Source: Owenia fusiformis (Eukaryota > Annelida > Polychaeta > Sabellida > Oweniidae). From it: a DNA stretch of 64,000 nt. The notes under the pieces were generated by a model. The model saw nothing but the letters and a program-made list of their open reading frames with translations, was not told the DNA's origin and did no database searches. Positions 36,153-62,384 of the stretch are shown here, in pieces. The stretch is taken from the NCBI GenBank assembly GCA_903813345.2, contig CAIIXF020000010.1:5073169-5137168 (forward strand), in the 5' to 3' direction. A program made the position numbers and the translations under genes. Positions within the stretch are counted from its first letter, which is position 1, and every line of letters starts with the position of its first letter.

Positions 36153-38973
36153 CTAGTGCATTTTCAAGAAATCTTCCATCTTTTTAGGTACACTTCCCAC
36201 ATAGTTTATCTTAGATTGCATGATAGTTTGGGCAGCCAAGCATTGAAGGCTGATGTAGTTTACAATGCTTATAGGTAGGGGGGCCTGGGAGGCACTGCGT
36301 AAAATCTGCATAGGATTTTGCCGTTCATTATTGCATGTGTCTACATGAGCGCCATTATTGAGCAATAACTTGACAACTTCCACCTTGCTTGGCTTATTCA
36401 TGGCGGCTATATGAAGCGGAGTGTTATTATCTATATCTGTAGCATGTATATTGGCTCCAACTTCAAGAAGAATGTTGACTACTTCAATGGAGGGGAAGGC
36501 ACAAACTGGATAGCGTCCAACAGATGTAGTTTCTTTAGCACATGCCATATGAAGGAGTGAATATCCCTTTGTGCCCAATGGATTCATTTTCACAAGTTTG
36601 TACGCAAGTTTCTTGAATGAAAAATCTTGCTCCGATCGCATACTCCGTTTTGTTTTACAGATGAGGCACATTAAGTGTAAAACGACTAGAATTAGCCGGT
36701 TATAGTTTGTATGGTCACGTTCTGTGATATTGACAGACTGAATATGTTTACTGCCTCTATCAATCTCATTGATGCACTCCTCATACACAGCCATGATGTC
36801 ATTGAATGGAACATTCTGCGCTGGACGTGACCGATTATCTGACATCATGAATGAGAATAACTCAGCAAAAGAGAGAAAGCTGCTTTGTGTCATTGGATTC
36901 AAAGGTTCCAAAAGCTTTTGCTGCATGTCCAGAGCATACATCCAAAGTGTTATACACCTGTCAAAGTTGCCAAGATCAGCATAAACAGCCCCACGGTAGC
37001 GTATATAATAGGACGTGTCAGGGTGAGCCGGCCCTAGTATACGCTCTCTCACCAACAGAGCTTGCATTCGCATGTCATCAGGGTCTGATATGAGCTCATC
37101 AAGCTGCAGCCTATTTGTCACTTCAGTTGCATTTTCATACGCAGCAATCTTTGATAATGTTTCGGGTTTTGGCATTAAATGTATGGGGTCACTAAAGCGT
37201 TCTTCCATAGCTTGACGCCAGTAGTGCAATCCTCCTAGCATATCGCGCTTTTTATCAACGTAGGTAGCCCCAAGGAGTTCAAGGGCATCTATGCGCTCAG
37301 CTTTATCACAATGGACAGAGTCAGTCAGGTACTCAACAATGTTAGTATGGCCAGTCACAGCAGCCGCAAGGAGTGGAGTCATCCCATAAGAATCTTTCTC
37401 CATCTTTGTTGAGCGCTCAAGCAGTAGTTTCATTATATCTAAACTCCCAGACTCAGCACAATCATGCAGAGCTGTATTACCTGCAAAGACAACAAGAAAA
37501 TTAATTTTTGAATTATAACTATTACTTGTGCTTATAAAGGCAACTCACTGACATGAAAAAATTATCTCAAATAATACATAGAGGATATCCTATGATTTAT
37601 GAGTGATATGATTTTTAACCACGAATGGATATGATATCTGCACGAGCGAGCGTAGCGAGAGAGTGCAGATATCAATATCCATGAGTGGATTAAAATCATA
37701 TCACGAGTAAATCATAGGATGTTCTTTTTATTCCATGGTTAAAGTCATCGTCAGAATCGTCGGAAATTAAGTGATTTAATTAGAATTTTCCAAACGATCC
37801 GGCGATGTTGACACTAGCCTCGTTTTGAGTCTGAAGTAGCAAAAATCCATAAACCATCGCATACGACGTCGTATGTCATGGCTAAAAAACCGTATGCTAT
37901 GGTTAAGTGAAAATTTGTCAAAAATATCATATTTTACCACTGATTACAAAAATACCGTTTTTATTTTCACATGTTATCCTATGAATATCATGCTAACTAT
38001 GGAATAAAAGTACATATGGGTCACTGTTTCATATAGTAGAGTAGATATGGATAATTTTTGGTCAACTTTGAGTTTTTATTATTTTTAAATGTGTTCAGTA
38101 AGAAGAAACATTCTGTTCTACAAGATATTTCACTTTTCACAACATTAGCACAAGACCACCATAGGCACAAGATTATCAAAGTATAACACTTTGAAAAAGT
38201 ACAATAAAAATCAGTAAAATTGCCAAAAATCTATAAAATTGCACAAAAACTGGCTAAATTGTAAAATCATTAATTGCACAAATAATTTTTAGTTTCTGAT
38301 ACATTACCCCCATAAATATGGAGTGGACTTTCCAAATCACAACTACTTGTGCATTGAAAATGTGGGGTTGTTATACATTGTCAGTAATGACACAAAGCTG
38401 AATTTTACATGCACAACAAAATTACATGCCTTTCACACTTTTCCTATTGGCATCAGCTTTGCGCTCCAACAAATACTTGACGATATCAATGTGTCCTTTA
38501 TAGCAAGATATCATGAGACATGTATGACCGTGCCTATTCGCAACCTCTATGTCAGCATTATGCTCACAGAGATACTTGACGATTTCTATATGGCCATCGA
38601 AGCATGCTGCTCTTAGGGGTGTTGAGTTGGTAAATGTTGTATTGTTCACACCAGCTCCTTTTGATATCAAAAACTCAACAATATGCTTATGGCCCGCAGC
38701 AGCTGCGCTCCAAAGGGGCGGAGCTCCTTCTATCGTTTCTCCATCAAATGTCACTGAACCTGTCTGTTCAATATCCACATTACAAGAGTCAATGAGGTAT
38801 TCAACAACGTCTATATGACCATGTCGACATCCCATAATGAGAGGAGTACCACCGTTGGTTTTAGCATGACATAACATCTTCACTTCCTCCTCATTTTTGT
38901 GATCGAGGAACATTTTTAGACGACATACTTTTCCCTCTCTGGCTGCGTTATACACGGCACTTTTGAACTCCAT
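36153..38973 (-). CDS. FEM1C: fem-1 homologue (FEM1A/C type), 2 coding exons, 623 aa
   Basis: Coding exons 38973-38430 and 37480-36153 (stop TAG 36155-36153). FEM1 proteins are substrate receptors of CUL2-RING E3 ubiquitin ligases that recognise C-terminal degrons. Residues 1 to about 240 are ankyrin repeats with the family hallmarks GGTPLIMGCRHGH, FDGETIEGAPPLW, NSTPLRAACFDGH and HGHTCLMISCYKGH. A middle TPR-like region contains MRMQALLVRERILGP and TSYYIRYRGAVYAD. C-terminal ankyrins include NTPLHIAAMN, and the protein ends LKMH. Length fits the usual 617-627 aa, and the FEM1A/C type is preferred over FEM1B because of FDGETIEGAPPLW and RYRGAVYAD. The intron starts GCATGT rather than GT: only AAAG|GC keeps the conserved VKGNTALHDCAESG, so it is a probable GC-AG intron. 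It is divergent from the kinase gene. Confidence 0.95.
37575..38010. repeat. hairpin/MITE inside the fem-1 intron
   Basis: ATCCTATGATTTATGAGTGA at about 37585 is answered by TCACGAGTAAATCATAGGAT at about 37700, and the arms continue through ATATGATTTTTAACCAC and GATATCTGCA. The hairpin is about 140 bp. A second outer pair, TTTTATTCCATGGTTA (37727) and TAACTATGGAATAAAA (about 37995), suggests the element extends to about 38010. Confidence 0.6.
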
Positions 38974-39416
38974 TATGTGTCAAGATGGTGCTCTACACAC
39001 AGGAAAAAATTGAGAACAGATTAATTAGTCGATAGGCCCTCGATTGGAAGCGTTTACAGTCAATTTCCGTAACATTTTTTTTGATGTTTACTCCCAAATT
39101 TTCATCATGGAGATCTTCAATGTCAAACTTATCTGAAACGAAAATAAAATACTATAATGTCTATTACCATGTTAACAACTGTAAAAAATTATAATTCAAA
39201 TTTCTTTGAATTTTAGAACTGATAAAAATGTAAACTGACTTTTCAATTATGTTTAAATTTTCTTTTACTATACTTCAATCATAAAATTTTTCGGTTCGCT
39301 TTATACCATAGTTTTACATGACCGGAAATACAAACCCGGAAGTGTAAGCTTACGAATGGTGTAGTTTAAAACTTGTTCTTGTTTCTCTACTTCATTTTAG
39401 GTATAGCAGTCAAAAT
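38974..39416. promoter_or_regulatory. shared head-to-head promoter region (fem-1 / nucleotidyltransferase-kinase)
   Basis: Only 443 bp separate the two divergent start codons. ACCGGAAAT (39321-39329) and CCCGGAAGTG (39335-39344) match ETS-family sites, which are common in TATA-less bidirectional promoters. I see no TATA box in a fitting position. The left part must hold the fem-1 5' UTR, and the 20-30 bp before 39417 the kinase 5' UTR. Confidence 0.5.
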
Positions 39417-42400
39417 ATGATATGTATTATATTGGTAGCAGGACATGGTACACTCCTGGAAAGTGAAATAAGGGTGAGATTTACATTGATATGTTCATGA
39501 TTGATTGCATTGCATAAAATATTGAGATGATCAAGAAACTCAAGAATTCTTAGGCTTGTCTCATCATACATTGTATGCCTGTATGCATAGAGGATCATGA
39601 TAGTATTGACACTCCCATAAATGTGAGGTTGGTCAACCCCATGAAATGGGGGTAGATCATGAAGGCCCTGGTGCAGTCTTGGCAAGGTAGTTTATTTTAT
39701 TCCACAGGAATTCATCATGACTAAAAGAGAAGTCAATAAAGCAAGCCACATACATGTAGGTCAAGACTTGGAATGTAGTAATATAGTGGTATTAAAAAAT
39801 ATATAGAACTATGGGACTAGTATGAGTGTTGAGGACTACAAATATTTCTATTCTGAGCTGATCAAACTAGATATGTCATATTATTATATGTGATATATAT
39901 ATTGACAATTTGTGTATTCTTTTGAAAATCATCTTTTAATTATGGTGCTGATTTCGAAAATCTAAAGTGCTGATATCCGGAAAGAAATGACTGCAAGCAG
40001 AAACCCTTGAATACAGTAGAATCTGTCTAAGTGGAACACCTTTGGTACATCTCAAAAGTGTTCTATTTTGGGATGTATTCCACTTATGTTTATTTAACAT
40101 GAAGTCAGTTTGTCTTGGGGCTCTGAAGTGTTCCACTTTTAGAGGTGTTCCACTTTACAGGTTTCACTGCATATAAATGCGCTATTGAGATCAAGTTACT
40201 GAAAGTACTAAGAAAATCTCATCTTTGAACTAGAAATGGTTGCCATGGTAACTACATATCAAGGAATCCAGGGTAATCAAATAATTGTGAGATTGTATTA
40301 AACACACAAAATTATCAAACCCATAAAAATATTAACTTGTATGTGTCGTTAACGATTAACAATTCTTTTCTTACTATAGTAACATGTATAATATAAATTG
40401 GATTATAATATTTTTAGCAGTCTTGTTAGAATATTCTTGCAGCTGTTAGAATAGTAACATCAAGAGTTCATTGACAAGTTAGGGAAAATCTTTGGTTGAG
40501 TGCAAACAAGCTTTTTGGTTGAGTGTAATCAAAGTCATACAAAACAAAACATTAATTATTAATTTCAGACTGACAAAGACTATGTTCACTTGGCTGGTAT
40601 TCCTAAAGCACTACTCCCAGGGGTTGGAGGGAAACGCATCTTGGATTATTTGGTTGAGTGTAATCAAAGTCATACAAGGCAAAACATTATTAATTTCAGA
40701 CTGACAAAGACTATGTTCACTTGGCTGGTATTCCAAAAGCACTACTCCCAGGGGTTGGAGGGAAACGCATCTTGGATTATTTGGTTGAGTGTAATCAAAG
40801 TCATACAAAACAAAACATTAATTATTAATTTCAGACTGACAAAGACTATGTTCACTTGGCTGGTATTCCTAAAGCACTACTCCCAGGGGTTGGAGGGAAA
40901 CGCATCTTGGATTATTTGGTTGAGTGTAATCAAAGTCATACAAGGCAAAACATTATTAATTTCAGACTGACAAAGACTATGTTCACTTGGCTGGTATTCC
41001 AAAAGCACTACTCCCAGGGGTTGGAGGGAAACGCATCTTGGATTATTTGGTTGAGTGTAATCAAAGTCATACAAGGCAAAACATTATTAATTTCAGACTG
41101 ACAAAGACTATGTTCACTTGGCTGGTATTCCTAAAGCACTACTCCCAGGAGTTGGAGGGAAACGCATCTTGGATTACTGGTGGGAAACAATTAAGACGTA
41201 AGACATTACATCATGAATAAACTTGTATCTGTTATAAACAAATAGCGTATAGCAACAATAAAAAAAATTTAAGACAAAAAAACATAAGGCAGCAATTCTG
41301 AGATTTCACGGGATGGCCTTATAGTAGAAGCGGGTGAGGCAGTTGACTTGCCCTCACCATTATTTTACCACTTGAGGTATTGTAAATTTGGCCTCACCCT
41401 TGCCTCACCTTTGCCTCATTTACTTTTGGATCCAATCTATAGGCATGTTTTAGACTTGTACTCCTGAATCACAATCAATTGTAGTATGTCCGATATACAA
41501 TAAGCCCCCCCCCCCCTTTCCCGGGAAGCCCCCCTCCCACACTTAAAGTCATTCATACAACCATATTGTGCATCATTGTAAAGGCCATCCAAAGTTACAT
41601 CAATTTGCAAAATCTCATAAACAAGTCCTGATCTGGTTCATAAATATTTTCATCATTTATTGTTATTTTGTTTATTTCATGTATTTCCAGGAGGCAAATA
41701 TTTAGTGAGGTTTATCTTGTGACTAATGCAGACAAGTAAGTTGATTTCCAGGTTAAGGCCAGTATAAAGATGTCAGCACAGTAAAACCTGTTTAAGTGGA
41801 ACACCCTCGGTGCATCGAAATAGGTTTCTGCTTGGGAGGTGTTCTACTTACATGGTTCATTTTAAAGTAAAGTTAATGGGTGTTCAAAGTACAGAGGTTT
41901 TACTGTCATAAAGTTATTAGACTGCTGTCTTAAAATGGAAATAAATAATGAGTTAAAATAACTTTATTATAACTTAATTGAACAAAATGGAAATTTATGG
42001 GCCAAACCAATATCTCGTAATATAAGGTCTTTACTGCATCATAGAGGTCACAAAACATACAGTCATGGTCACCATAACTATTTCATAAAATTGGTTTGTT
42101 TAAACATTATTACAGTAAAACCTGTATATACTCTAAAGGTGTGTTTAGTGAGCAATGACTGAAATCTAATAAAATAATAAAAAGGATGGGAAGAAGAAAG
42201 AAGGAGCAGGATCTGTCTGATGTGTTAAACAAAAATAAATATATGTAATCATTTTTTTAATTAATACTATTGATGTTGCATTAGAGTCCAGACATGTTTT
42301 TATTTCAGACATCAAAGACTTGTAGATTAACAAGAAAATTACCTGCGTTCAATTTAAACACTTAACAATGAATCTCACGTCTAATGTAATCACAAACTAA

Positions 42401-45400: not shown

Positions 45401-48400
45401 AAAACATGTACAGTTCTATTCATGTTCTTATATATTAGAATAGGAAAGTTCTTAGAGAAGCCTTCAAGTGACCAGACTTCATCCAGGTTGGCCAGTGTGG
45501 TGTTCTACTGCTTCAGGTAGGAATTGGTATGAGAGGGGAGGTGATTGTAAGTCGGAACGAAACCCCTCCCTATAATATAAGTACTTTACACATACATTTG
45601 CTATTTAATTTATGTTGTTCAAAACCTGTCCACATTCGGTTTGTTACTAAAGTCAGATTGTACATTATTTTTAAGCACTGAGCATTATTTCCATTCTGTT
45701 ATTGTGTTTAATTCTGATATTTTTCACCCACACATTTATAAAATGTTTAAGAATCTACTATGTCCTGTTTAAAGGTTAACATGTTTTTTTACAGAAAGCA
45801 ATCGCTGGCTTATTTTGGAGATTATCTAACACAGTGCAATACACCAAATGAAAGGAGATTTGGTAAATTCATGGTATGTACTACATTTATCAATCCTTAC
45901 ATTAGAGTTCTTATTATTAGCTATGCTTATTTTATGAATTAAATAATACCAAGGGTTTTGAGTCTGCACAATTTATTATTAAGATGTTCTAATAACCAGC
46001 AAAACAATCCAAATTTTCAACTGCCAGAACTGTTTAGGTAATATTTAAAGCAAGTTTAACAAACAAAAGATATTAAATTTGTAAGACTGGTATGTTTATT
46101 TTGTATGATTGATGTTAATGTACAGTTGTAAGTTAATTGAAAAAGGAAAATAAATGTTATCAAAAAAATAGAAAAAAAAAGATGTTTGTCTGATGTTCTA
46201 GGAATGGCTAATAAATGATAAAGGAAAGACAGTCTATGGAATGAAATTACCAACTGGTTTTCAACTTATAGGACAAGTGGTAATTGTTTTGAACTAATTA
46301 AATGTTCTTATATTAACCTCTTGACAACCAAGAGTGACGAGAGACCTCAGAAATGACCTTGAAACCCAGAGTGACGAGATAATCCGTCACAAAATTGTTC
46401 ACTAAAATTCCTCTTATTTGAACAATTTTTATTCAATTTACACAAAAACTGTTTCAAAATGTCTAGGAATGATCTCCGCCGTCTAATTTTACTAAATTGA
46501 TCATAATCTGTTGTGTATGTATGTAGTAAAATGTCAAAAGCTATCAAAAATAATCTGGTTTCAACCTATTTTAGAACCTGGGATTCAAGAGGTTAATATT
46601 CATACAAGTTCAAGTATGGTTAATCTACAATTTGCATTTAAAGATAAACTTTTTATTAACTCAAAGTATCATTGAAATAATTTTATTTTCTTGATCATAT
46701 ATGAATCCTTTTCAGTATGATTAATTTGAAATTATGATTAATGATTCTTTTCTAATGATATAGGGTTTATTAGACTACAAACGTTGGCTTGAGTATTTCT
46801 CAAGTAAGCAATATGAATTCAACCATCAGCCTATTACCAAGAGGTCTCATGCGAGGTAAGTGTGATAGCATTTTGTCCAGACAGCATTTGATTCAATGGT
46901 ATGAGAGCATTTGGCTTTTGCAAGGGTGTGATAGCATTTCTTGTGACAGCATTTGATTCAATGGTACGAGAGCATTTGGCTTTTGCAAGGGTGTGACAGG
47001 ATTTGTTGTGACAGCATTTGATCCAGTGGTATGAGAGTATTTGGCTTTTGCAAGGGTGTGATAGCATTTGTTGTGACAGCATTTGATTCAATGGCATGAG
47101 AGCATTTGGGTCTTGTGAGGGTGTATTGGCAATTTTTCTTGACAGCATTTGATCCAATGGCATGAGAGCATTTGGCTTTTGCAAGGGTGTGATAGCATTT
47201 GTTGTGACAGCATTTGATCCAGTGGTATGAGAGCATTTGGCTTTTGCAAGGGTGTGCTAGCATTTGTTGTGACAGCATTTGATTCAATGGTATGAGAGCA
47301 TTTGGCTTTTGCAAGGGTGTGATAGCATTTCTTGTGACAGCATTTGATCCAATGGTATGAGGGCATTTGGCTTTTGCAAGGGTGTGATAGCATTTGTTGT
47401 GACAGCATTCGATCCAGTGGTATGAGAGCATTTGGCTTTTGCAAGGTTGTGATAGCATTTGTTGTGACAGCATTTGATTCAATGGTATGAGAGCATTTGG
47501 CTTTTGCAAGGGTGTGATAGCATTTTTGTGACAGCTTTTGATCCAATGGTATGAGAGCATTTGGCTTTTGCAAGGGTGTGATAGCATTTGTTGTGACAGC
47601 ATTTGATTCAATGGTATGAGAGCATTTGGCTTTTGCAAGGGTGTGATAGCATTTGTTGTGACAGCATTTGATTCAATGGTATGAGAGCATTTGGCTTTTG
47701 CAAGGGTGTGATAGCATTTGACCCCATGTATGTCGTGACATTATTTGATGAATTAGATGTACGAAATATAGTATAGAATTAGCATATAGTGTGACATCTT
47801 TCAATCACAAGTGAGGTTTGTTTAAATTCTGCTCTGCAATTTTTCATTTGGAATGTGTCATTTGATTTCATATAAGGTTGTTGTTTGAATATATCATTTC
47901 ATATGGATGTTGTAATATTTGTTTGTCCTTCTATTGTATTATTGCATCATTTATGTCCCAAGAAACATGTTGGTTTAGTATGATAAATTTCACTTGATGT
48001 GCACATTTCTTCTTTTACAATGCTTAAATGATATACAAAATGTAAAAATACAGTAAATTATAGGGTGGGCCTCATGGGTAACCCCTCTGATGGCTTCAAT
48101 GGAAAGACAATCTCTATGTCTATAGCAAACTTCTGGGCTGAAGTGACAATAGTTGAGAGTGAACGTCTAGTGCTGATGCCCCACCCTCTCAATGACCCCA
48201 CAGAGTTTGGCAGTTTATGGGACCTCTATGGTATAAGCCGGAAAGAAGGGTAAGCTTACTCAGAATGATTTCACATACATGTATTACCATATGAGGTCTT
48301 TACATTGAAATTTTCAACTGATAAAATACTTTCTGGGAAAATCTAATTAAACAAAGATATTTAATTTAATAAAAAGATAGGACAAGAGCTTCACAATAAC

Positions 48401-51400
48401 ATACATTTACTCATAAATAATTACTTCAAATAACCTTTAGTCATATACTTTAATTGACCAGTACTGCTTTTATTAAAACCTTACCAACTTAAATCTCTAC
48501 CATAGTAACCAGGCTGACATCTCGCCAATAATAATGTTACCATGACAACTCAACAAGGATGGAAGTACAGATCGAAGTCATTATATATATGAATCTATCT
48601 TATAATATATTATACTATTTAATAGGATAGTGCAGTGTGTACACATATAATATATAATAGTAATAGTATATAACACTTGAATTTATCGGAATATTTTTAT
48701 TGCAGATATCTTGGTGGCCTCCGACTATTACAAGCAACCTGTAAAAAGTTTTATGAATACTGTTCTCAGAAAGGGTAAACCATATTTTACAGATACTACA
48801 TTTTTAAAATGGTGTACTGTAATTAGAAGAGTTGATAAAAAGCAATTTATTTTCATTTCATTTATTATTCTTTTGAACATGATTCCAATGAAAGGATATT
48901 CAGAGAGACAAAAATGCACCATCTAATTTTGGAATTACTTTTTCAATTAAAGTGGAATATTCTTCATTTTTTGTGTATATTATTCAATGCAAGACACAGC
49001 GGTAGACATACTTTTATATGCTGTATCAATGACTGCAATTCAGAGAGATAAGATTTCTGTCTATTTATACTCTTGACTAAAATGAGCCAAAAATGAACAA
49101 TTATTGATAATAATCATATTTGACAAAATTATATAGCTTCAGATTATTTTTGATTCCAGGATAGCCCTTGGGAAGAGAAACTTTACATTAAAGTATGATA
49201 CAAACATTCCAAGACAAGTGGTAAGCAACTTCACTTTAAAGTATGATACAAACATTCCAAGACAAGTGGTAAGAAACTTCACATTAAAGTATGATAAAAA
49301 CATTCCAAGACAAGTGGTAAGAAACTTCACATTAAAGTATGATACAAACATTCCAAGACAAGTTGTAAGAAACTTCACTTTAAAGTATGATACAAACATT
49401 CCAAGACAAGTGGTAAGAAACTTCACATTAAAGTATGATACAAACATTCCAAGACAAGTGGTAAGCAACTTCACATTAAAGTATGATACAAACATTCCAA
49501 GACAAGTGGTAAGAAACTTCACATTAAAGTATGATACAAACATTCCAAGACAAGTGGTAAGAAACTTCACATTAAAGTATGATACAAACATTCCAAGACA
49601 AGTGGTAAGAAACTTCACATTAAAGTATGATACAAACATTCCAAGACAAGTGGTAAGAAACTTCACATTAAAGTATGATACAAACATTCCAAGACAAGTG
49701 GTAAGAAACTTCACATTAAAGTATGATACAAACATTCCAAGACAAGTGGTAAGAAACTTCACATTAAAGTATGATACACACATTCCAAGACAAGTGGTAA
49801 GAAACTTCCCATTAAAGTATGATACAAACATTCCAAGACAAGTGGTAAGAAACTTCACATTAAAGTATGATACAAACATTCCAAGACAAGTGGTAAGAAA
49901 CTTCCCATTAAAGTATGATACAAACATTCCAAGACAAGTGGTAAGAAACTTCACATTAAAGTATGATACAAACATTCCAAGACAAGTGGTAAGAAACTTC
50001 CAATTAAAGTATGATACAAACATTCCAAGACAAGTGGTAAGAAACTTCACATTAAAGTATGATACAAACATTCCAAGACAAGTGGTAAGAAACTTCACAT
50101 TAAAGTATGATACAAACATTCCAAGACAAGTGGTAAGAAACTTCTCATTAAAGTATGATACAAACATTCCAAGACAAGTGGTAAGAAACTTCACATTAAA
50201 GTATGATACAAACATTCCAAGACAAGTGGTAAGAAACTTCTCATTAAAGTATGATACAAACATTCCAAGACAAGTGGTAAGAAACTTCTCATTAAAGTAT
50301 GATACAAACATTCCAAGACAAGTGGTAAGAAACTTCACATTAAAGTATGATACCAACATTCCAAGACAAGTGGTAAGAAACTTCACTTTAAAGTATGATA
50401 CAAACATTCCAAGACAAGTGGTAAGAAACTTCACATTAAAGTATGATACAAACATTCCAAGACAAGTGGTAAGAAACTTCACATTAAAGTATGATACAAA
50501 CATTCCAAGACAAGTGGTAAGAAACTTCACATTAAAGTATGATACAAACATTCCAAGACAAGTGGTAAGAAACTTCACATTAAAGTATGATACAAACATT
50601 CCAAGACAAGTGGTAAGAAACTTCACATTAAAGTATGATACAAACATTCCAAGACAAGTGGTAAGAAACTTCACATAAAAGTATGATACAAACATTCCAA
50701 GACAAGTGGTAAGCAACTTCCCATTAAAGTATGATACAAACATTCTAAGACAAGTGGTAAGGAACTTCACATTAAAGTATGATACAAACATTCCAAGACA
50801 AGTGGTAAGAAACTTCACATTAAAGTATGATACAAACATTCCAAGACAAGTGGTAAGCAACTTCCCATTAAAGTATGATACAAACATTCCAAGACAAGTG
50901 GTAAGAAACTTCACATTAAAGTATGATACAAACATACCAAGACAAGTGGTAAGAAACTTCACATTAAAGTATGATACAAACATTCCAAGACAAGTGGTAA
51001 GAAACTTCACATTAAAGTATGATACAAACATTCCAAGACAAGTGGTAAGAAACTTCACATTAAAGTATGATACAAACATTCCAAGACAAGTGGTAAGAAA
51101 CTTCACATTAAAGTATGATACAAACATACCAAGACAAGTGGTAAGAAACTTCACATTAAAGTATGATACAAACATTCCAAGACAAGTGGTAAGAAACTTC
51201 ACATTAAAGTATGATACAAACATTCCAAGACAAGTGGTAAGAAACTTCACATTAAAGTATGATACAAACATTCCAAGACAAGTGGTAAGAAACTTTACAT
51301 TAAAGTATGATACAAACATTCCAAGACAAGTGGTAAGAAACTTCACATTAAAGTATGATACAAACATTCCAAGACAAGTGGTAAGAAACTTCACATTAAA

Positions 51401-54400
51401 GTATGATACAAACATTCCAAGACAAGTGGTAAGAAACTTCACATTAAAGTATGATACAAACATTCCAAGACAAGTGGTAAGAAACTTCACATTAAAGTAT
51501 GATACAAACATTCCAAGACAAGTGGTAAGAAACTTCACATTAAAGTATGATACAAACATACCAAGACAAGTGGTAAGAAACTTCACATTAAAGTATGATA
51601 CAAACATTCCAAGACAAGTGGTAAGAAACTTCACATTAAAGTATGATACAAACATTCCAAGACAAGTGGTAAGAAACTTCACATTAAAGTATGATACAAA
51701 CATTCCAAGACAAGTGGTAAGAAACTTTACATTAAAGTATGATACAAACATTCCAAGACAAGTGGTAAGAAACTTCACATTAAAGTATGATACAAACATT
51801 CCAAGACAAGTGGTAAGAAACTTCACATTAAAGTATGAAACAAACATTCCAAGACAAGTGGTAAGAAACCTCACATTAAAGTATGATACAAACATTCCAA
51901 GACAAGTGGTAAGCAACTTCACATTAAAGTATGATACAAACATTCCAAGACAAGTGGTAAGAAACTTCACATTAAAGTATGATACAAACATTCCAAGACA
52001 AGTGGTAAGAAACTTCACATTAAAGTATGATACAAACATTCCAAGACAAGTGGTAAGAAACTTCACATTAAAGTATGATACAAACATACCAAGACAAGTG
52101 GTAAGAAACTTCACATTAAAGTATGATACAAACATTCCAAGACAAGTGGTAAGAAACTTCACATTAAAGTATGATACAAACATTCCAAGACAAGTGGTAA
52201 GAAACTTCACATTAAAGTATGATACAAACATTCCAAGACAAGTGGTAAGAAACTTTACATTAAAGTATGATACAAACATTCCAAGACAAGTGGTAAGAAA
52301 CTTCACATTAAAGTATGATACAAACATTCCAAGACAAGTGGTAAGAAACTTCACATTAAAGTATGAAACAAACATTCCAAGACAAGTGGTAAGAAACCTC
52401 ACATTAAAGTATGATACAAACATTCCAAGACAAGTGGTAAGCAACTTCACATTAAAGTATGATACAAACATTCCAAGACAAGTTGTAAGAAACTTCACAT
52501 TAAAGTATGATACAAACATTCCAAGACAAGTGGTAAGAAACGTCACATTAAAGTATGATACAAACATTCCAAGACAAGTGGTAAGAAACTTCTCATTAAA
52601 GTATGAAACAAACATTCCAAGACAAGTGGTAAGAAACTTCATATTAAAGTATGATACAAACATTCCAAGACAAGTGGTAAGAAACTTCTCATTAAAGTAT
52701 GATACAAACATTCCAAGACAAGTGGTAAGAAACTTCATATTAAAGTATGATACAAACATTCCAAGACAAGTGGTAAGAAACTTCACATTAAAGTATGATA
52801 CAAACATTCCAAGACAAGTGGTAAGCAACTTCCCATTAAAGTATGATACAAACATTCCAAGACAAGTGGTAAGAAACTTCACATTAAAGTATGATACAAA
52901 CATTCCAAGACAAGTTGTAAGAAACTTCACATTAAAGTATGATACAAACATTCCAAGACAAGTGGTTAGAAACTTCACATTAAAGTATGATACAAACATT
53001 CCAAGACAAGTGGTAAGAAACTTCACATTAAAGTATGATACAAACATTCCAAGACAAGTGGTAAGAAACTTCACATTAAAGTATGATACAAACATTCCAA
53101 GACAAGTGGTAAGAAACTTCACATTAAAGTATGATACAAACATTCCAAGACAAGTGGTAAGAAACTTCACATTAAAGTATGATACAAACATTCCAAGACA
53201 AGTGGTTAGAAACTTCACATTAAAGTATGATACAAACATTCCAAGACAAGTGGTAAGAAACTTCACATTAAAGTATGAAACAAACATTCCAAGACAAGTG
53301 GTAAGAAACTTCACATTAAAGTATGATACAAACATTCCAAGACAAGTGGTAAGCAACTTCCCATTAAAGTATGATACAAACATTCCAAGACAAGTGGTAA
53401 GAAACTTCACATTAAAGTATGATACAAACATTCCAAGACAAGCGGTAAGAAACTTCACATTAAAGTATGATACAAACATTCCAAGACAAGTGGTAAGCAA
53501 CTTCCCATTAAAGTATGATACAAACATTCCAAGACAAGTGGTAAGCAACTTCCCATTAAAGTATGATACAAACATTCCAAGACAAGTGGTAAGAAACTTC
53601 ACATTAAAGTATGATACAAACATTCCAAGACAAGTGGTAAGAAACTTCACATTAAAGTATGATACAAACATTCCAAGACAAGTGGTAAGCAACTTACCAT
53701 TAAAGTATGATACAAACATTCCAAGACAAGTGGTAAGAAACTTCTCATTAAAGTATGATACAAACATACCAAGACAAGTGGTAAGAAACTTCACATTAAA
53801 GTATGATACAAACATTCCAAGACAAGTGGTAAGAAACTTCACATTAAAGTATGATACAAACATTCCAAGACAAGTGGTAAGAAACTTCACATTAAAGTAT
53901 GATACAAACATTCCAAGACAAGTGGTAAGAAACTTCATATTAAAGTATGATACAAACATTCCAAGACAAGTGGTAAGAAACTTCACATTAAAGTATGATA
54001 CAAACATTCCAAGACAAGTGGTAAGAAACTTCACATTAAAGTATGATACAAACATTCCAAGACAAGTGGTAAGAAACTTCACATTAAAGTATGATACAAA
54101 CATTCCAAGACAAATGGTAAGAAACTTTACATTAAAGTATGATACAAACATTCCAAGACAAGTGGTAAGAAACTTTACATTAAAGTATGATACAAACATA
54201 CCAAGACAAGTGGTAAGAAACTTCACATTAAAGTATGATACAAACATTCCAAGACAAGTGGTAAGAAACTTCACATTAAAGTATGATACAAACATACCAA
54301 GACAAGTGGTAAGAAACTTCACATTAAAGTATGATACAAACATTCCAAGACAAGTGGTAAGAAACTTCACATAAAAGTATGATACAAACATTCCAAGACA

Positions 54401-57400
54401 AGTGGTAAGAAACTTCACATTAAAGTATGATACAAACATTCCAAGACAAGTGGTAAGAAACTTCACATTAAAGTATGATACAAACATTCCAAGACAAGTG
54501 GTAAGAAACTTCATATTAAAGTATGATACAAACATTCTAAGACAAGTGGTAAGAAACTTTACATTATAGTATGATACAAACATTCCAAGACAAGTGGTAA
54601 GAAACTTTACATTAAAGTATGATACAAATATTCCAAGACAAATGGTAAGAAACGTCCCATTAAAGTATGATACCAACATTCCAAGACAAGTGGTAAGGAA
54701 CTTCACATTAAAGTATGATACAAACATTCCAAGACAAGTGGTAAGAAACTTTACATTAAAGTATGATACAAACATTCCAAGACAAGTGGTAAGAAACTTC
54801 ACATTAAAGTATGATACCAACATTCCAAGACAAGTGGTAAGGAACTTCACATTAAAGTATGATACAAACATTCCAAGACAAGTGGTAAGAAACTTCATAT
54901 TAAAGTATGATACAAACATTCCAAGACAAGTGGTAAGGAACTTCACATTAAAGTATGATACAAACATTCCAAGACAAGTGGTAAGCAACTTCCCATTAAA
55001 GTATGATACAAACATTCCAAGACAAGTGGTAAGGAACTTCACATTAAAGTATGAAACAAACATTCCAAGACAAGTGGTAAGGAACTTCACATTAAAGTAT
55101 GAAACAAACATTCCAAGACAAGTAGTAAGAAACTTCACATTAAAGTATGAAACAAACATTCCAAGACAAGTGGTAAGAAACTTCACATTTAAGTATGATA
55201 CAAACATTCCAAGACAAGTGGTAAGGAACTTCACATTAAAGTATGATACAAACATTCCAAGACAAGTGGTAAGCAACTTCCCATTAAAGTATGATACAAA
55301 CATTCCAAGACAAGTGGTAAGAAACTTCACATTAAAGTATGATACAAACATTCCAAGACAAGTGGTAAGCAACTTCCCATTAAAGTATGATACAAACATT
55401 CCAAGACAAGTGGTAAGAAACTTCACATTAAAGTATGATACCAACATTCCAAGACAAGTGGTAAGAAACTTCACATTAAAGTATGATACAAACATTCCAA
55501 GACAAGTGGTAAGAAACTTCCCATTAAAGTATGATACAAACATTCCAAGACAAGTGGTAAGAAACTTCACATTAAAGTATGATACAAACATTCCAAGACA
55601 AGTGGTAAGAAACTTCACATTAAAGTATGATACAAACATTCCAAGACAAGTGGTAAGAAACTTCACATTAAAGTATGATACAAACATTCCAAGACAAGTG
55701 GTAAGCAACTTCCCATTAAAGTATGATACAAACATTCCAAGACAAGTGGTAAGCAACTTCCCATTAAAGTATGATACAAACATTCCAAGACAAGTGGTAA
55801 GAAACTTCACATTAAAGTATGATACAAACATTCCAAGACAAGTGTTAAGAAACTTCACATTAAAGTATGATACAAACATTCCAAGACAAGTGGTAAGCAA
55901 CTTCCCATTAAAGTATGATACAAACATTCCAAGACAAGTGGTAAGCAACTTCCCATTAAAGTATGATACAAACATTCCAAGACAAGTGGTAAGCAACTTC
56001 CCATTAAAGTATGATACAAACATTCCAAGACAAGTGGTAAGAAACTTCACATTAAAGTATGATACAAACATTCCAAAACAAGTGGTAAGAAACTTCACAT
56101 TAAAGTATGATACAAACATTCCAAGACAAGTGGTAAGAATCTTCACATTAAAGTATGAAACAAACATTCCAAGACAAGTGGTAAGAAACTTCACATTAAA
56201 GTGTGAAACAAACATTCCAAGACAAGTGGTAAGAAACTTCACATTAAAGTATGAAACAAACATTCCAAGACAAGTGGTAAGAAACTTCACATTAAAGTAT
56301 GATACAAACATTCCAAGACAAGTGGTAAGAAACTTCACATTAAAGTATGATACAACGATTCCAAGACAAGTGGTAAGAAACTTCTCATTAAAGTATGATA
56401 TAAACATTCCAAGACAAGTGGTAAGAAACTTCACATTAAAGTATAATACAAACATTCCAAGACAAGTTGTAAGAAACTTCACATTAAAGTATGAAACAAA
56501 CATTCCAAGACAAATGGTAAGAAACTTCACATTAAAGTATGATACAAACATTCCAAGACAAATGGTAAGAAACTTTACATAAAAGTATGATACAAACATT
56601 CCAAGACAAGTGATAAGAAACTTTAGCCCCGCTCTTTAAATTGACCATTACATTTTAGCTGCTATTACATCACAGTTGACTATCACATCACTTAATGGTT
56701 ATAATATTACAATCAATAATTCAATAAAACAACACTGCCATGATATCCTAGATGAAATTTAGAAAGTATCAAAATTTCAACAAACGTCCTGAATTAAGAA
56801 TTAGAATTTTCTATCAACCCATCAAGTCTTCATTTTTCTATATTCCAATTGTAGTGGTAGAGGTCCTCAACAACCCTGGCATCTTTCTGGTGTATCCTGA
56901 TTTATATGATATGAAATCTTTTTTCAACTGCAATTTGTCATCATATGTTACCATGTCTCTCAATAGGGCCTGGCTGGTAGCAGTGCAATAGTGGCAGCAA
57001 CACTGAAGTGTCTTTTACAGTTCTTCAACTTAAACTCATCAGTAAGTACCAAATATCAATTATGCATGCTTGCATAATATTTCTGCATATTTATGAAATA
57101 TATCTACATGTTTAGGATAGTCTGCATGTTTACAGGATGTACATCAGTGTTTATACAAAATATACATACATACATGTATGTCTACACTTTAGATATGTTT
57201 ACCTGATTACAGGATATAGTTACATGTTTAAAGATGTATATACATGTTTACCGAATATGTTTCCATATTTACAAGATATGTCTACATGCTTACAGGATAT
57301 GCCCAAGCAAATTCAGCCTCAGTTTATTCTAGATGTTGAGAAAGAGGAACTCTTCATTCAGGCAGGTCTACAAGACAGAGTCATTCAGGTGTGTAGTTGT

Positions 57401-58980
57401 ATTTACATAGGAGTATTTATGAAGAATTTATGAAGATGTTATATAGGTGAATGAATTAAAATAAGATTCATTAATTGAATAGTCATTTATTTACTGAAAA
57501 GGACTTCAAAAAGAATGCATGCAGTAATTTTCTAAGGAAATATTGGGTCTTCAAAACGAGACTCACTTATCTCCCAATGCACAGTTAGTATCACTGGAAC
57601 AATATCAAAAGGTATTTTATATCATGTGACATGTGTTCAATCAATCACAGAATGAGAAACATAAGAGTGAGATAATAAGAAATGTTCTGGATTGATTAAC
57701 TGAATTCTATAGATTAACAGCATTATCTTGATTGAGTTATTGCAAATATATTTTATACTTTCCTATGTAGGTATATGAAGGTTTGGTCTACATGGACTTC
57801 AGTAAAGAGTTAATGGATTCTAGGGGATGTGGTGAGTTCAAAAACTGTTATCGTTTTAAGAATCTGCATGACCATGTAAATGCAAATCATATTTTTCCTT
57901 ACATGTACCTATAGAATATGTAATGTAAATGGTGGAGCAAAATGTACTTTGTATCCATAATATAACTAAATATTGAGAACTATTTAACTGAGCCGCAAGA
58001 ACTAAATAATTAATGGAACAACTTTTGGCCATCCTATCCCAGGTTCCCCTAACTACAATCAATGAATTGAACTATTACAGATAACTGAGATACAATATAA
58101 TATTGTCGTACTATTTTCTCTTTTTTAAAAAGGGAATTATGAGTACCTGCCATCAGATTCCACTCCAAAGTTCTGGTTGGCTTATGTAGGAGATCCCAGT
58201 GACTCAGGCAAAATACATAGTGACGTCAGCATCAGATGGAGAAATGGTAGGTTAAAGGGGTAAAACAGACTATAATATCCTCATTATTGTAGAAATTTTC
58301 ATGAGTATCGAGTCTGGAATTTGGTAATGAAAATAAATCTCAACGTTTGTTGGAGATAGAGTGAAGAGTTTGCCAGTCCATCAGTCCATCTGAATAATAA
58401 GTGTAAATGTTTTGTTTTAGACAAGTAATAGATTCCACTGTATACAATTAAGTATAAAGTACAGCAAATCCCAGCCAGCCATAATTTCTCAAATGGCTAC
58501 TGTACTCTACTTGATAAACTGTTAAAAATTATAAAATTACTTTTTACAAAAATGTCTGCAATTGCGATAGTCAGACTGAACAAATTCAGATTACATTTTA
58601 AAGGGTTACATTTTACATAAATTCTGCAAGCCAAAGTTTAAGTAGTAGACAAGTAGAATAAAAATCTTGCTAAAATTTGTATTTCCAGGTGACCAAGAAG
58701 TTGTCGACGCTATGAAAACATTTGCTCAGTATACAGACGCAGCAAGGTATGATACTTAACACTGAAAAAATATTACATTTTACTTCACTATTTTTGAATT
58801 ATATGCTAAGGTTTTTGATATCTGAAATAACTTTGCACTCAAAATGTCTGAGATTACTTTTTGTATTGAATCGTAATATGTCAGTGTTTATTGTATGTTC
58901 TGCAATTTCAGGAGTGCAATAGAAAACAAGGACTGGGAACAGCTCGCCAGCCTCATGAATGACAACTTTGAATTAAGAAG
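39417..58980 (+). CDS. bifunctional nucleotidyltransferase-GHMP kinase (glucuronokinase-like), 19 exons visible, 3' end outside window
   Basis: Exons: 39417-39473, 41097-41197, 41691-41735, 42916-43002, 43573-43639, 43954-44117, 45439-45516, 45795-45873, 46202-46279, 46764-46855, 48064-48249, 48706-48774, 49160-49220, 56967-57041, 57296-57388, 57771-57831, 58133-58246, 58689-58746, 58912-58980. Phases agree at every junction (1634 nt, 544 codons). Residues 1-283 are a sugar-nucleotidyltransferase fold: ILVAGHGT, PKALLPGVGGK (31-41), AGDMLF with Asp123, FLEKP (to 182). From residue 283 comes a GHMP kinase: RVGLMGNPSDGFNGKT, the ATP-binding GLAGSSAIVAATL (389-401) and DWEQLASLMNDNFELRR. The layout matches invertebrate proteins annotated as glucuronokinase-like. 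Phosphorylation of glucuronate (or a similar sugar) and activation to a UDP-sugar is inferred. The C-terminal exon with the last GHMP motif lies beyond 64000. Several splice junctions carry tandem arrays. Confidence 0.88.
40013..40172. mobile_element. MITE with CAGTRRAAYCTGT ends, copy 1 (intron 1)
   Basis: Left end ACAGTAGAATCTGTCTAAGT followed by GGAACACC; right end GGTGTTCCACTTTACAGGTTT then CACTGC, the approximate reverse complement. About 155 bp with no coding capacity. A second copy lies at 41777-41908 and a truncated one at about 42113. Confidence 0.6.
40514..41197 (+). repeat. tandem partial duplication of exon 2: four donor-less copies plus the real exon
   Basis: Acceptors of the form TTAATTTCAG are followed by ACTGACAAAGACTATGTTCA at 40569, 40700, 40835, 40966 and 41097 (spacing 131, 135, 131, 131). 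The first four copies contain the first ~81 nt of exon 2, then jump from TTGGATTA back into intron sequence (TTTGGTTGAGTGTAATCAAA), so they lack the last 20 nt and the 5' splice site. Only the fifth is complete (DYWWETIKT, donor GACGTAAGA). Copies 1-2 and 3-4 form a 266-bp higher-order duplication. Reading through a decoy copy shifts the frame because 131 is not a multiple of 3. Confidence 0.9.
41195..41690. other. intron 2 with C-tracts at 41500-41533
   Basis: Intron between exons 2 and 3. CTTGCCTCACC-type words are repeated at 41345-41420, and poly-C tracts at about 41505-41518 and 41527-41533 flank CCCGGGAAG. No other feature. Confidence 0.4.
41777..41908. mobile_element. MITE with CAGTAAAACCTGT ends, copy 2 (intron 3)
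   Basis: Left end CACAGTAAAACCTGTTTAAG followed by TGGAACACC; right end GTACAGAGGTTTTACTGT. Same family as 40013-40172, with some internal decay. The truncated relative at about 42113 shares TACAGTAAAACCTGTATA. Confidence 0.6.
44930..45370. repeat. ~20-bp minisatellite (GGTAGTCTAGGACTGGAAAG) in intron 6
   Basis: About 18-20 degenerate copies of TAGTCTAGGA with AAAGGG or GAAAGTG spacers. A block of about 90 bp (TCTAGGATTTGAAAGTGTAG onward) is duplicated almost exactly (45076 and 45158). It stops before the exon 7 acceptor at 45438, so no splice signal is included. Confidence 0.8.
46856..47722 (+). repeat. ~65-bp tandem array starting at the exon 10 donor, ~13 copies
   Basis: Units contain TGTGATAGCATTTGTTGTGA, CAGCATTTGATTCAATGG, TATGAGAGCATTTGGC and TTTTGCAAGG. 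The first unit starts exactly at the donor of exon 10: GCGAG|GTAAGTGTGATAGC in the authentic site against GCAAGG-GTGTGATAGC at each later junction. The array therefore seems seeded at the 5' splice site, with later copies having lost the AAG of GTAAGT. The unit length varies by 1-3 bp. Antisense open frames through it (KCSHTIESNAV-type) are by-products of the repeat. Confidence 0.8.
49175..56625 (+). repeat. 48-bp tandem array of exon 13 end plus 5' splice site, 154 units, 7.4 kb
   Basis: The unit is the last 42 nt of exon 13 (AACTTCACATTAAAGTATGA, then TACAAACATTCCAAGACAAG, then TG) plus the donor GTAAGA. The authentic donor is at 49221 (GTAAGC). Donor positions then recur every 48 bp to 56613 (154 steps) without one inserted or deleted base; the last is mutated (GATAAG). 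Because 48 is 16 codons and each donor is in the same phase, every unit adds 16 residues (VRNFTLKYDTNIPRQV) in frame. In-frame stops arise at 50676, 54372, 54567 and 56580. Substitutions cluster in shared variants, and a block of 11 units (528 bp) is duplicated: GAAACCTC at about 51865 and 52393. The array forms most of the intron before the ATP-binding exon 14. Confidence 0.97.
57095..57300 (+). repeat. degenerate ~21-bp array ending at the exon 15 acceptor
   Basis: The true acceptor reads CTACATGCTTACAG|GATATG. Upstream, similar words follow one another: ATATTTACAAGATATGT, ACATGTTTACCGAATATG, CTGATTACAGGATATAG, TGCATGTTTACAGGATGT and ACATGTTTAGGATAGT. There are about 8-9 degenerate copies of acceptor plus the first six exon bases. 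The copies are much more diverged than in the 48-bp array, and several keep a usable TTACAG. Confidence 0.6.
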
Positions 58981-59404: not shown

Positions 59405-62384
59405 ATGAAAGGTGTTCTCGATCTTCCAGAATCTGGGAAAAGAACTTTTGATAATGTTTTAACTAGTCCTTCAGCTGACTCTCAAACCCCTAAACAGCAT
59501 AAATAAGACATTGCTCAACTTTTCGATCGACTTGATTCCATCCAAGCTAGCCTAAACAACAACGCTGTGTCCGTCAGTGTCCTTATGAACGATATGAAAG
59601 ATGTTAAATCGTCTATCAAAGGTACTCTGGAGCTGGCGGCAGATGTATCCGATCTGAAAACTCAAAATGAGTATCTAAGTGATCGCGTCGACATACTCGA
59701 GGGTAGGATCGCTTCTCAATCTGACCAAATCAAAGATCTCGCAAATGCTGTAGAGGAAATCACATTTAGGTCTATGAGAGCAGGCCCGTAAGACACTTTT
59801 CTCCAAGGGGGGTGCGGTTTTTAGCTTACTAAAGAGAATATAAATTTGTCAATTTTTTGCCGCGCAAATCAAATCGCGGAAGACAGTGAGGGGGGGGGGT
59901 CAGTTACTCCCTATATTGGTTTGGAATTAACAAATGCAACTTCCAAACGTTCCAATTGTTTTGTGGGGGGTGTGAGGAGTGGTCCACTCCCCCTAGAAAA
60001 TTTTACAGTTTTGAGATGCTATTTGGTGCTTTCTGGGCACTTTCAAAGTGTAAGTTTCTAAGTAGTACGCCACCACCACGGGAATAAGAGTTGAGTGAAT
60101 AAAAACCGAGTATCCAGGGGGGTCTGGGGGTTCTCCCCCAGGAAAATTTTGAAATTTGATTGTATTTTGAGCGAATTTGCAACCATCTGGTACGCCTGTG
60201 CGTTATGAGTCAATAAGAAAAATGTGAATTTTTTTTTCAAATTCTTTCGGGAGTGTCAAAGAGGATGAGAGGGTGAAGTGGGGTGGGGTGCCAGTAGGGG
60301 AGCAAGGGGTTGTCCCCCAGAAACATTGACCATATCAAGGTGCTATTTGATGATGCCTGGGCACTTAAAAAATGTCTGAGACAATACATGAAATTCAGAA
60401 TATTTTCTTTTGTTTTGTGGGGGATGTGAGGGGTGTCTAACTCTACGAGAAAATTTTACAATTTAAAGATGATATTTGGTGCTTCTGGGCACTTTTAAAG
60501 TGTATTAGTCAATAAAAACATTGAAAAACAATCACAATTTTTTTCAAATTTTGGGGGTGTCAAAGGGGGGGGGGGGGGGGGGAGGGGTGCCAGAGGGGGA
60601 GCTGGGGTGCCAGAGGGGGAGCAAGTGTTTGTCCCCCATATCAAAATTTACAATATCAAGGTGCTATTCGATGAAGTTTGGGCACTTTAAAAATGTCTGT
60701 GCCTAAAAGAAGAAAATTTTACAATTTTAAGATGCTATTTGGTGCTTTCTGGGCACTTTCAAAGGGTATGAGTCAATAAAAGATTTGAAAAATCTCATTT
60801 TTTGGGGGGGGGGGGTGTTAAGGGGGGGGGGGGGCTGCCAGAGGGGGAGGTGGAGTGGGGATGCCAGAGGGCGAGTAAGTGTTAGTCTTCCAGAATCATT
60901 AACTTTATCAAGGAGCTATTTGATGATGTCTGGGCAATTTAAAAGTGTCTGAGACAATACATAAAACAAATTCAGAACTTTTCCATTGTTTTGTTTGGGA
61001 CGTGAGGGGTGGCCCACTCCCCCTAGAAAATTTTACAATTTTACGACGCTATTTGGTGCTTTCTGGGCACTTTCAAAGTGTATGAGTCAATTAAAGAATT
61101 TGAGAAAATCACAATTTTTTTTGGAGGGGGGGGGAGGGTCAAGGGGGGGGGGCGCCAGAGAGGGGGGAGGGGGTTATGCAAGTGCAAGATGCAAGAGGGG
61201 GAGCAAGTCCCCCAGAAACACTAACTATATTGAGGAGCTATTTGATGATGTCTGGGCACTTTAAAAGTGTCTGAGACAAAACACTAAAATAAATTTAGAA
61301 CTTTTCCATTGTTTTGTGGGGGGTGTGATGGGTGGCCAATACCCCTAGAAAATTTTACAATTTTAAGATGTTATTTGGTGCTTTCTGGGTGCTTTCAAAG
61401 TGTATGAGTCAATGAAAAAAAATTACAAAAAAAATATTTTTCAAAAAAAAAATTTTTTCTAAATTTTTTTTCAAATTTATTTTGGGGGGTGACAAAGGGG
61501 GGTGCGGTCGCACCCATCGCACCCCCCCCCATCTGACGGCCCTGGAGAGACAATCTAATCATAAACAATCTCCCAGAGCAGGGGCAGGGTACAGAGGACT
61601 GTGACACTTTGGTCTACGATTTCATACGAAATAAGCTACGTGTACCCAACGACCAAATATTCAAATATTCTCTCGCGAAAACCCGCATGCCCCTGAAAAG
61701 ATCGATGTTAGTCATCGTTTCCCCAGAATGGGTGCTCAAACTAAACCGATGGTTGTGAAATTTACCATGAGATCCGGGCGAGATGTCTGTCTTAAATTTG
61801 CCAAGAACCTCAAGGGCACAGGCATATACATTACTGATCAACTCCCAAAGTCTATGTCTCAGCGTAAACAAGCGCAAATGCCCAAATTCAAAGATCTTAA
61901 GGCCGCTGGGAAAAACGCCTACTTTAACAAAGACAAGCTAATGCTTGATAAAAGACCCGTTGATCCACTTTTCACAAAGAACCCCCTCCCATTGTCTTCT
62001 AAAACCATTGACATTGCACCCAAACTTGATAGCTATGTAATAGGCGAATCCGTGGAGGGAAACAACAGTGGGTTTACCGCAATTGCTGTTAAAGTCCCGG
62101 GGATAAAAGAGGCCCAAGCAGCTTTTTCGAAGTGCCATAAATTTGATGATGTTATCAAATTAACGTCTGCGCCCTATGCCTATCGTGTTCCTGAAGGCTT
62201 TGGATATTCCGACAACGGCGAATTTGGAACTGGTAAAGTTATGTCCGATATTCTTGAGAATAGCAAAATGACCGACATTTTTGTCATTGTCCCAAGGACT
62301 CTTGGTCAGCCTAACTTCGGCAAAACTAGCCATGCGAACATTAAGGGGACAATAAAGGACTGTCTTAAAAAGTTAGCGGGTTGA
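59405..62384 (+). pseudogene. LINE ORF1 (coiled coil plus RRM-like), split by a transposon and frame-broken
   Basis: ATG at 59405 opens a frame with a TAA at 59504. It continues as a heptad-rich coiled coil (SDLKTQNEYLSDRVDILEG) up to FRSMR at 59776, where a 1.76-kb element is inserted. After the element (from 61550) the frame resumes as DNLIINNLPEQGQG, the usual core of L1-type ORF1 proteins. It then shifts frame near 61685 (KTRMPLK against APEKIDVSHRF) and carries on as MGAQTKPMVVKFTMRSGRD, LPKSMSQRKQAQ, to a stop at 62384. Such proteins bind LINE RNA as trimers. The copy is inactive: one stop, one insertion, one frameshift. It lies in sense inside an intron of the kinase gene. Confidence 0.8.
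59781..61544. mobile_element. hAT-like non-autonomous element (hAT5 type), 1764 bp, with GAGAG target duplication
   Basis: Ends CAGGCCCGTAAGAC and (complement of the right end) CAGGGCCGTCAGAT match at 11 of 14 positions and look like hAT termini. The 5-bp GAGAG occurs directly before (59776-59780) and after (61545-61549); removing the element and one GAGAG restores the LINE ORF1 frame, which proves the borders. A 5-bp duplication is characteristic of the hAT5 group. The interior has no transposase. It holds about four to five copies of a ~330-400-bp unit with TTCTGGGCACTTTCAAAGTG, GAAAATTTTACAATTTTA, GATGATGTCTGGGCA and long G tracts. Similar G-rich ends are seen near 5.3 kb. Confidence 0.8.

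Follow-up and report, generated by a model that had tools for sequence, protein, structure and literature searches.

In the 64,000-nucleotide stretch of genomic DNA analysed here (the window), an intron of a predicted GHMP-type kinase gene carries a minisatellite made from the gene's own exon-intron junction. It consists of 155 head-to-tail units of 48 bp, each composed of the last 42 nt of the preceding exon and a 5' splice site (donor) of the GTAAGA type. The array is an unusually long case of a kind of repeat that has been described from lancelets, under the name of "mirages". What it adds is scale: 155 copies at one junction, and similar arrays at many exon ends of one genome. The array is probably neutral, with the first donor doing nearly all of the work and the copies being removed with the intron, although rare longer forms are possible.

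Structure of the array and its host gene

The features of the kinase locus are listed below, exon numbers 13 and 14 being those of the original prediction.

48063-48249, plus strand: kinase exon RVGLMGNPSDGF...SRKEG, start approximate
48706-48774, plus strand: kinase exon YLGGLRLLQATCKKFYEYCSQKG, 69 nt
49160-49220, plus strand: authentic 61-nt exon (exon 13), 20 residues, with acceptor TTCCAG before and donor GTAAGC after
49221-49226, plus strand: first (authentic) donor GTAAGC, U1 pairing energy -8.0, the same as that of the array consensus donor
49179-56618, plus strand: 155 tandem units of 48 bp combining the last 42 nt of the exon with a GTAAGA-type donor (Tandem Repeats Finder (TRF) and unit alignment)
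50676-50678, plus strand: first in-frame stop of the array, in unit 31
56967-57041, plus strand: next exon (exon 14), starting with the GHMP kinase motif (Pfam and alignment)
57296-57388, plus strand: kinase exon DMPKQIQPQFILDVEKEELFIQAGLQDRVIQ
57771-57831, plus strand: kinase exon VYEGLVYMDFSKELMDSRGCG
58133-58246, plus strand: kinase exon GNYEYLPSDSTPKFWLAYVGDPSDSGKIHSDVSIRW

TRF describes the array in a single row (49176-56623, period 48, 155.2 copies, 97% matches, 0% indels). With units cut in phase with the donor, the consensus is AACTTCACATTAAAGTATGATACAAACATTCCAAGACAAGTG followed by GTAAGA, and donors recur at 49221+48n up to 56613 with no indel, exactly as originally predicted together with the composition of the unit and its approximately 155 in-phase copies. 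GT is retained in 153/155 units, GTAAG in 151/155 and G/GTAAG in 146/155. There are 47 distinct unit sequences and 130 substitutions, 61 units being identical to the consensus. Counts of the 24-mer spanning the junction are 104 for the window and likewise 104 for the whole 498-Mb genome. ATTAAA hexamers number 147 in the 155 units and lie 28 nt 5' of the donor in the consensus unit; they may be internal poly(A) signals adjoining U1 sites.

Splicing of the donor at 49220/49221 to the acceptor ahead of 56967 is in phase 0, in agreement with the prediction, and spans an intron of 7.7 kb; the units keep the phase, their length of 48 being divisible by 3. In-frame stops are located at 50676, the predicted position of the first, and at 54372, 54567 and 56580 (units 31, 108, 112 and 154). 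The predicted ceiling of about 30 extra copies therefore stands: no stop lies ahead of the donors of units 0-30, which correspond to 0 to 30 extra copies. The open frame was rejected as a sign of translation because one reverse frame also has 0 stops over the array. A minus-strand frame of 2498 aa is open over 49139-56635 owing to the repeat, which calls for caution in gene calls based on open reading frames.

Judging from its translated exons, the host gene belongs to the GHMP-type kinases: the GHMP N-terminal domain (PF00288) is found above the Pfam cut-off (E=1.2e-8, 35.5 bits vs 22.3). NCBIfam matches, obtained with a query without one exon, name other GHMP kinases, all below cut-off. Its motif suggests that the product may be a glucuronokinase. 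One more kinase exon is located beyond the window, at C10:5140777. The product expected from the first donor aligns with a Poribacteria protein over 182 residues, 112 of them identical, and since no gap crosses the junction, the ancestral junction is read as insert-free. Exon-peptide searches of the genome found no second copy of the kinase exons. A retrocopy or paralogue recording the splicing was also sought among the 135 exon-peptide matches listed (query without the 69-nt exon), but all of them fall at the kinase locus.

The array comes from a single assembly, and long tandem arrays are generally assembled poorly, so an artefact or a wrong copy number has to be considered. We find it very improbable, given 47 distinct unit types, variants shared locally, a repeated 11-unit block and many arrays of the same kind elsewhere in the genome.

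Similar repeats in the literature and in the same genome

A splice-donor minisatellite of human IFI6 (6-16, G1P3) was reportedly described by Turri, Cuin and Porter in 1995. Its unit is 12 bp long and present in about 26 copies, against 48 bp and 155 copies in another gene here. Like the IFI6 unit, the array unit carries a donor and its length is a multiple of 3 nt. In IFI6 the repeat gives multiple donors, of which two downstream units are used, with three mRNA species resulting (PMC4526556); the downstream donors of the present array are candidates for such use.

The amphioxus mirages are closer. In the two reports (PMC3087553; PMC3902484) they are minisatellite-like duplications of intron-exon boundaries on the donor or the acceptor side, with the splice signals repeated and without effect on splicing, and were found in Adh3, the globins BflGb6 and BflGb9, TnC and PGBD5. 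The units of the Adh3 mirage measure 10-72 bp (PMC3087553), and its length varies, with even somatic instability (PMC3087553; PMC3902484). The 48-bp array resembles the mirages in spanning an exon-intron boundary with the authentic junction at one end, in repeating the splice signals (153/155 GT, 151/155 GTAAG) and in having a unit within the Adh3 range. It differs in copy number, with 155 units here vs 6 and 3 in the two BflGb6 haplotypes, and probably in its host, which does not seem to be a lancelet; the mirages in the literature covered are all cephalochordate. No report of mirages outside lancelets was found in the literature searched, which left most subscription papers uncovered. The GC content is 36% (75.8 kb of sampled genome sequence). 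A GFP domain was not found in the genome, but the same search was blank in every control genome and is uninformative.

Tandem repeats at exon-intron boundaries are also described in human segmental duplications, where they alter splicing and account for 27 intron modifications (PMC2812944). They share the location of the present array, but average 30 bp x 4 and belong to recent primate paralogues, while here the array is far longer and no second gene copy was found. The original prediction knew of no described minisatellite of this structure, but precedents exist in the amphioxus mirages (PMC3087553; PMC3902484) and in IFI6 (PMC4526556).

The genome (498 Mb) was searched for further arrays with patterns of three donor motifs in a row, and the first 100 places listed per pattern were considered. 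Hand-counting among these matches gave 22 arrays of AGGTAAGT with gap 4-34, nine of AGGTAAGT with gap 35-65, eight of AGGTGAGT and eight of TGGTAAGT. Sequence 5' of the first donor was read by eye, unblinded, for all 47 arrays. By this reading 32/47 of the arrays listed adjoin a coding exon at its 3' end: 9/22 and 8/9 for the short- and long-gap AGGTAAGT lists, 7/8 for AGGTGAGT and 8/8 for TGGTAAGT. Nine of the 22 short-gap AGGTAAGT arrays had been chosen for their length; of the other 13, 3/13 are at exon ends. One of the 32 junction arrays (L094) resembles a duplicate of another (L024). For comparison, the beginning of C1 supplied 20 sites at which AGGTAAGT stands alone, representing one motif out of three; read in the same manner, 3/20 look like real donors (Fisher test against all 47 arrays, p=1.1e-4).

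Pfam support at curated cut-offs was sought for 32 of the 47 array flanks. The families found before arrays are Muted, NIF, Neur_chan_LBD, UDPG_MGDP_dh_N, MRPL52, TPR, B56, Il2rg, Rieske_4, TUDOR, MBT, Ssl1, UPRTase and Cript. Among lone AGGTAAGT sites, THOC1 and fucosidase were supported; there, 10/17 tails of at least 20 residues were submitted, 6/20 sites having no such tail. We consider an excess of arrays at exon junctions likely, and most marked where units exceed about 25 bp, although the objective (Pfam) test alone is no proof of it. When like is compared with like, 17/31 of the AGGTAAGT arrays are at exon ends (p=0.007); for those with short gaps the figure is 9/22 (p=0.09). By the Pfam cut-off alone, the other calls being made by unblinded eye, 14/47 arrays stand against 2/20 lone sites, which is not significant (p=0.12).

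Raw numbers of places, counted as copies, do not uniformly favour donor motifs over reversed ones: 650 vs 314 for AGGTAAGT with gap 35-65, 144 vs 344 with gap 4-34, 529 vs 138 for AGGTGAGT and 610 vs 518 for TGGTAAGT. The lone motif is itself scarcer than its reverse (19,150 vs 33,930). Hand-counting of the matches listed on C1 and C2 gave 8 donor-motif vs 7 control-motif arrays. The control motif TGAATGGA gave 8 arrays in 9 regions, whose edges were read in six frames, one region being wholly within an array. One of these control arrays (L042) is located, by eye, just inside the intron after a transporter-like exon. Another (L045, C2:29631200-29633400) has 24-bp units in what looks by eye like a serpin-like coding exon, with the frame EWLNPFNP open for 417 codons. 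On the acceptor side, 13 of the 17 arrays listed were read and 7/13 are exon-linked by eye; the Pfam cut-off was reached by 0/6 of the exon-linked ones submitted, L056 being too short.

Several of these loci have a peculiar organisation. Single exons with tandem repeats at both the acceptor and the donor side were seen at L087 (C1:58371900-58372900, UPRTase-like) and L020 (C2:33703200-33704900, UDP-glucose dehydrogenase-like). At L099-L101 (C8:35928900-35936300), the junction of a CRIPT-like exon is repeated as 31-bp units, in several blocks over ~7 kb downstream. L089 and L097 lie far apart but have almost the same flanks, each with a short AGGTAAGT array, i.e. a dispersed repeat with its own donor-like array. 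The junction unit of L013, which is of tetraspanin type, has a single further copy at L066 (C1:444321-444626), ~0.9 kb past the L013 array. A skew towards mostly exonic units was noticed in the position of the donor within the first unit, but boundary calls were unstable at some loci and we make no claim of it.

Origin of the array and use of its donors

A tandem duplication of the exon-intron junction in the GHMP-type kinase gene would have seeded the minisatellite, which unequal exchange or slippage may then have expanded to 155 copies within the intron. Certain variants reappear at constant spacing, as in an 11-unit block that was copied onward, which unequal exchange would predict. Variation within the array is compatible with neutrality: among 35 distinct variants, 9 are synonymous, 24 missense and 2 nonsense, a synonymous share of 25.7% vs 21.7% expected (p=0.54). 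Conservation of the donor core was considered and rejected, distinct variants being about as frequent in GTAAG (3/15 possible changes) as elsewhere in the unit (32/129).

The consensus donor 9-mer is present in 115/155 units and has a computed U1 pairing energy of -8.0, compared with -5.1 to -8.9 for six other donors of the kinase gene; 1.1% of the 2678 GT sites in window positions 1-49000 pair with U1 equally well. Since the first and the consensus donors pair equally with U1, donor strength does not single out the first one, and the argument for it would be its position beside the authentic 61-nt exon. The first donor would then yield nearly all mRNA, the copies behind it being spliced out as intron. 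The next donors may be used now and then, giving small amounts of forms with +16 or +32 residues, as reported for downstream units of IFI6. The array would be a large representative of the exon-junction minisatellites, or mirages, that are present at many exon ends of the genome.

With 151 GTAAG sites in each transcript, the array could also be imagined as a sink for the U1 small nuclear ribonucleoprotein, an idea raised in the original prediction. However, U1 is very abundant, so a single ordinary gene cannot compete for it. On these general grounds titration by one locus is implausible and we regard it as extremely improbable.

A different outcome would be a useful employment of downstream donors, with kinase isoforms carrying 1-30 extra 16-residue copies, the last of which restores the native junction. 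Every donor is in phase, most have equal U1 pairing, no stop occurs ahead of unit 31, and the resulting exon lengths, 109 or 157 nt, would not be unusual. The array has no indel, indels are fewer in multiple-of-three arrays, and IFI6 uses two downstream units as donors (PMC4526556). Against such isoforms, the substitutions look neutral, in-frame stops included, and the bacterial relative has no insert. A 16-residue insert would also adjoin the ATP-binding motif of the GHMP structure. Unit lengths of 24 sister junction arrays are distributed 7/9/8 modulo 3, with no excess of multiples of 3; the count is without the eight TGGTAAGT arrays, which have mixed periods (by top TRF period 1/8 is a multiple of 3). 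Since about one array in three would show it, the in-phase property looks like chance, and as frame-breaking units are not rare, heavy use of downstream donors is argued against. The series of protein lengths that was originally proposed keeps the absence of indels as a hint in its favour, but substitutions that look neutral, the modulo 3 count and the mirages, which are reported not to disturb splicing, leave it little support, and we hold it to be unlikely.

Array length might instead lower or tune the output of the gene through splicing at distal donors, partial retention of the array or internal polyadenylation. When donors compete, the intron-proximal one is often favoured, and both the intron of 7.7 kb and the 147 ATTAAA hexamers would suit such an effect. 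The exons flanking the array are, however, intact and conserved, and the reported mirages splice normally (PMC3087553; PMC3902484), which makes tuning of this kind improbable.

Several observations speak against a neutral array served by its first donor. Use of the first donor is a prediction, and most downstream donors match it in U1 pairing (-8.0). Variant cells are rarer at GTAAG (4/775 vs 126/6665 elsewhere), the cells not being independent. Indels per substitutions are 0/130 in the 48-bp array vs 19/164 in the 34-bp array and 3/35 in the 65-bp array of the same window. When junction arrays having 5 or more substitutions are compared, any indel occurs in 2/8 multiple-of-three arrays (the 48-bp array included) vs 8/9 others (Fisher 0.015, post hoc; L037, having no TRF row, and L016, L024, L025 and L036, with <5 substitutions, were left out). 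This scarcity of indels in multiple-of-three arrays is a post hoc hint of frame constraint. It was not replicated, as eight new TGGTAAGT arrays had mixed or non-multiple-of-three periods and neither confirmed nor refuted it.

More tentatively, and we are doubtful of it ourselves, exon-intron junctions of this genome may be preferred birthplaces of minisatellites through repeated duplication of short junction segments, tied to transcription, splicing or the junction sequence, and in multiple-of-three units the downstream donors may be active to a degree that lets selection remove indels. If so, junction arrays would be a reservoir from which new exon ends, protein repeats and introns could arise. 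About 150 near-identical in-phase donors facing one acceptor offer a clean natural test of 5' splice site choice among equals. A genome rich in such arrays, apparently outside lancelets, lets one ask where minisatellites begin. It also bears on a possible contribution of junction duplication to the gain of introns and exons, and on whether multiple-of-three arrays have their frame guarded.

Other repeats and genes in the window

Two smaller repeats of the window reach acceptor sides.

40514-41176, plus strand: five copies of a 131-bp repeat, all carrying an acceptor (TTAATTTCAG) and an exon-like start (TRF and reading)
57192-57301, plus strand: 21-bp degenerate repeat extending through the acceptor and 6 nt into the exon at 57296 (TRF)

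The last 131-bp copy runs into a likely exon at 41097-41197, by eye a nucleotidyltransferase exon of the kinase gene; Pfam gave no match for this exon. A second large minisatellite, with indels, occupies 29031-32203 (34 bp x 93 copies), and a 65-bp x 13 array at 46860-47720 is located upstream of the exon at 48063. TRF arrays make up about 23% of the window.

A minus-strand gene at 36153-38979 codes for ankyrin repeats (Ank families) and is presumably FEM1-like. An open frame of 249 aa at 61635-62384 has a UPF0029 match (E 9.7e-8).

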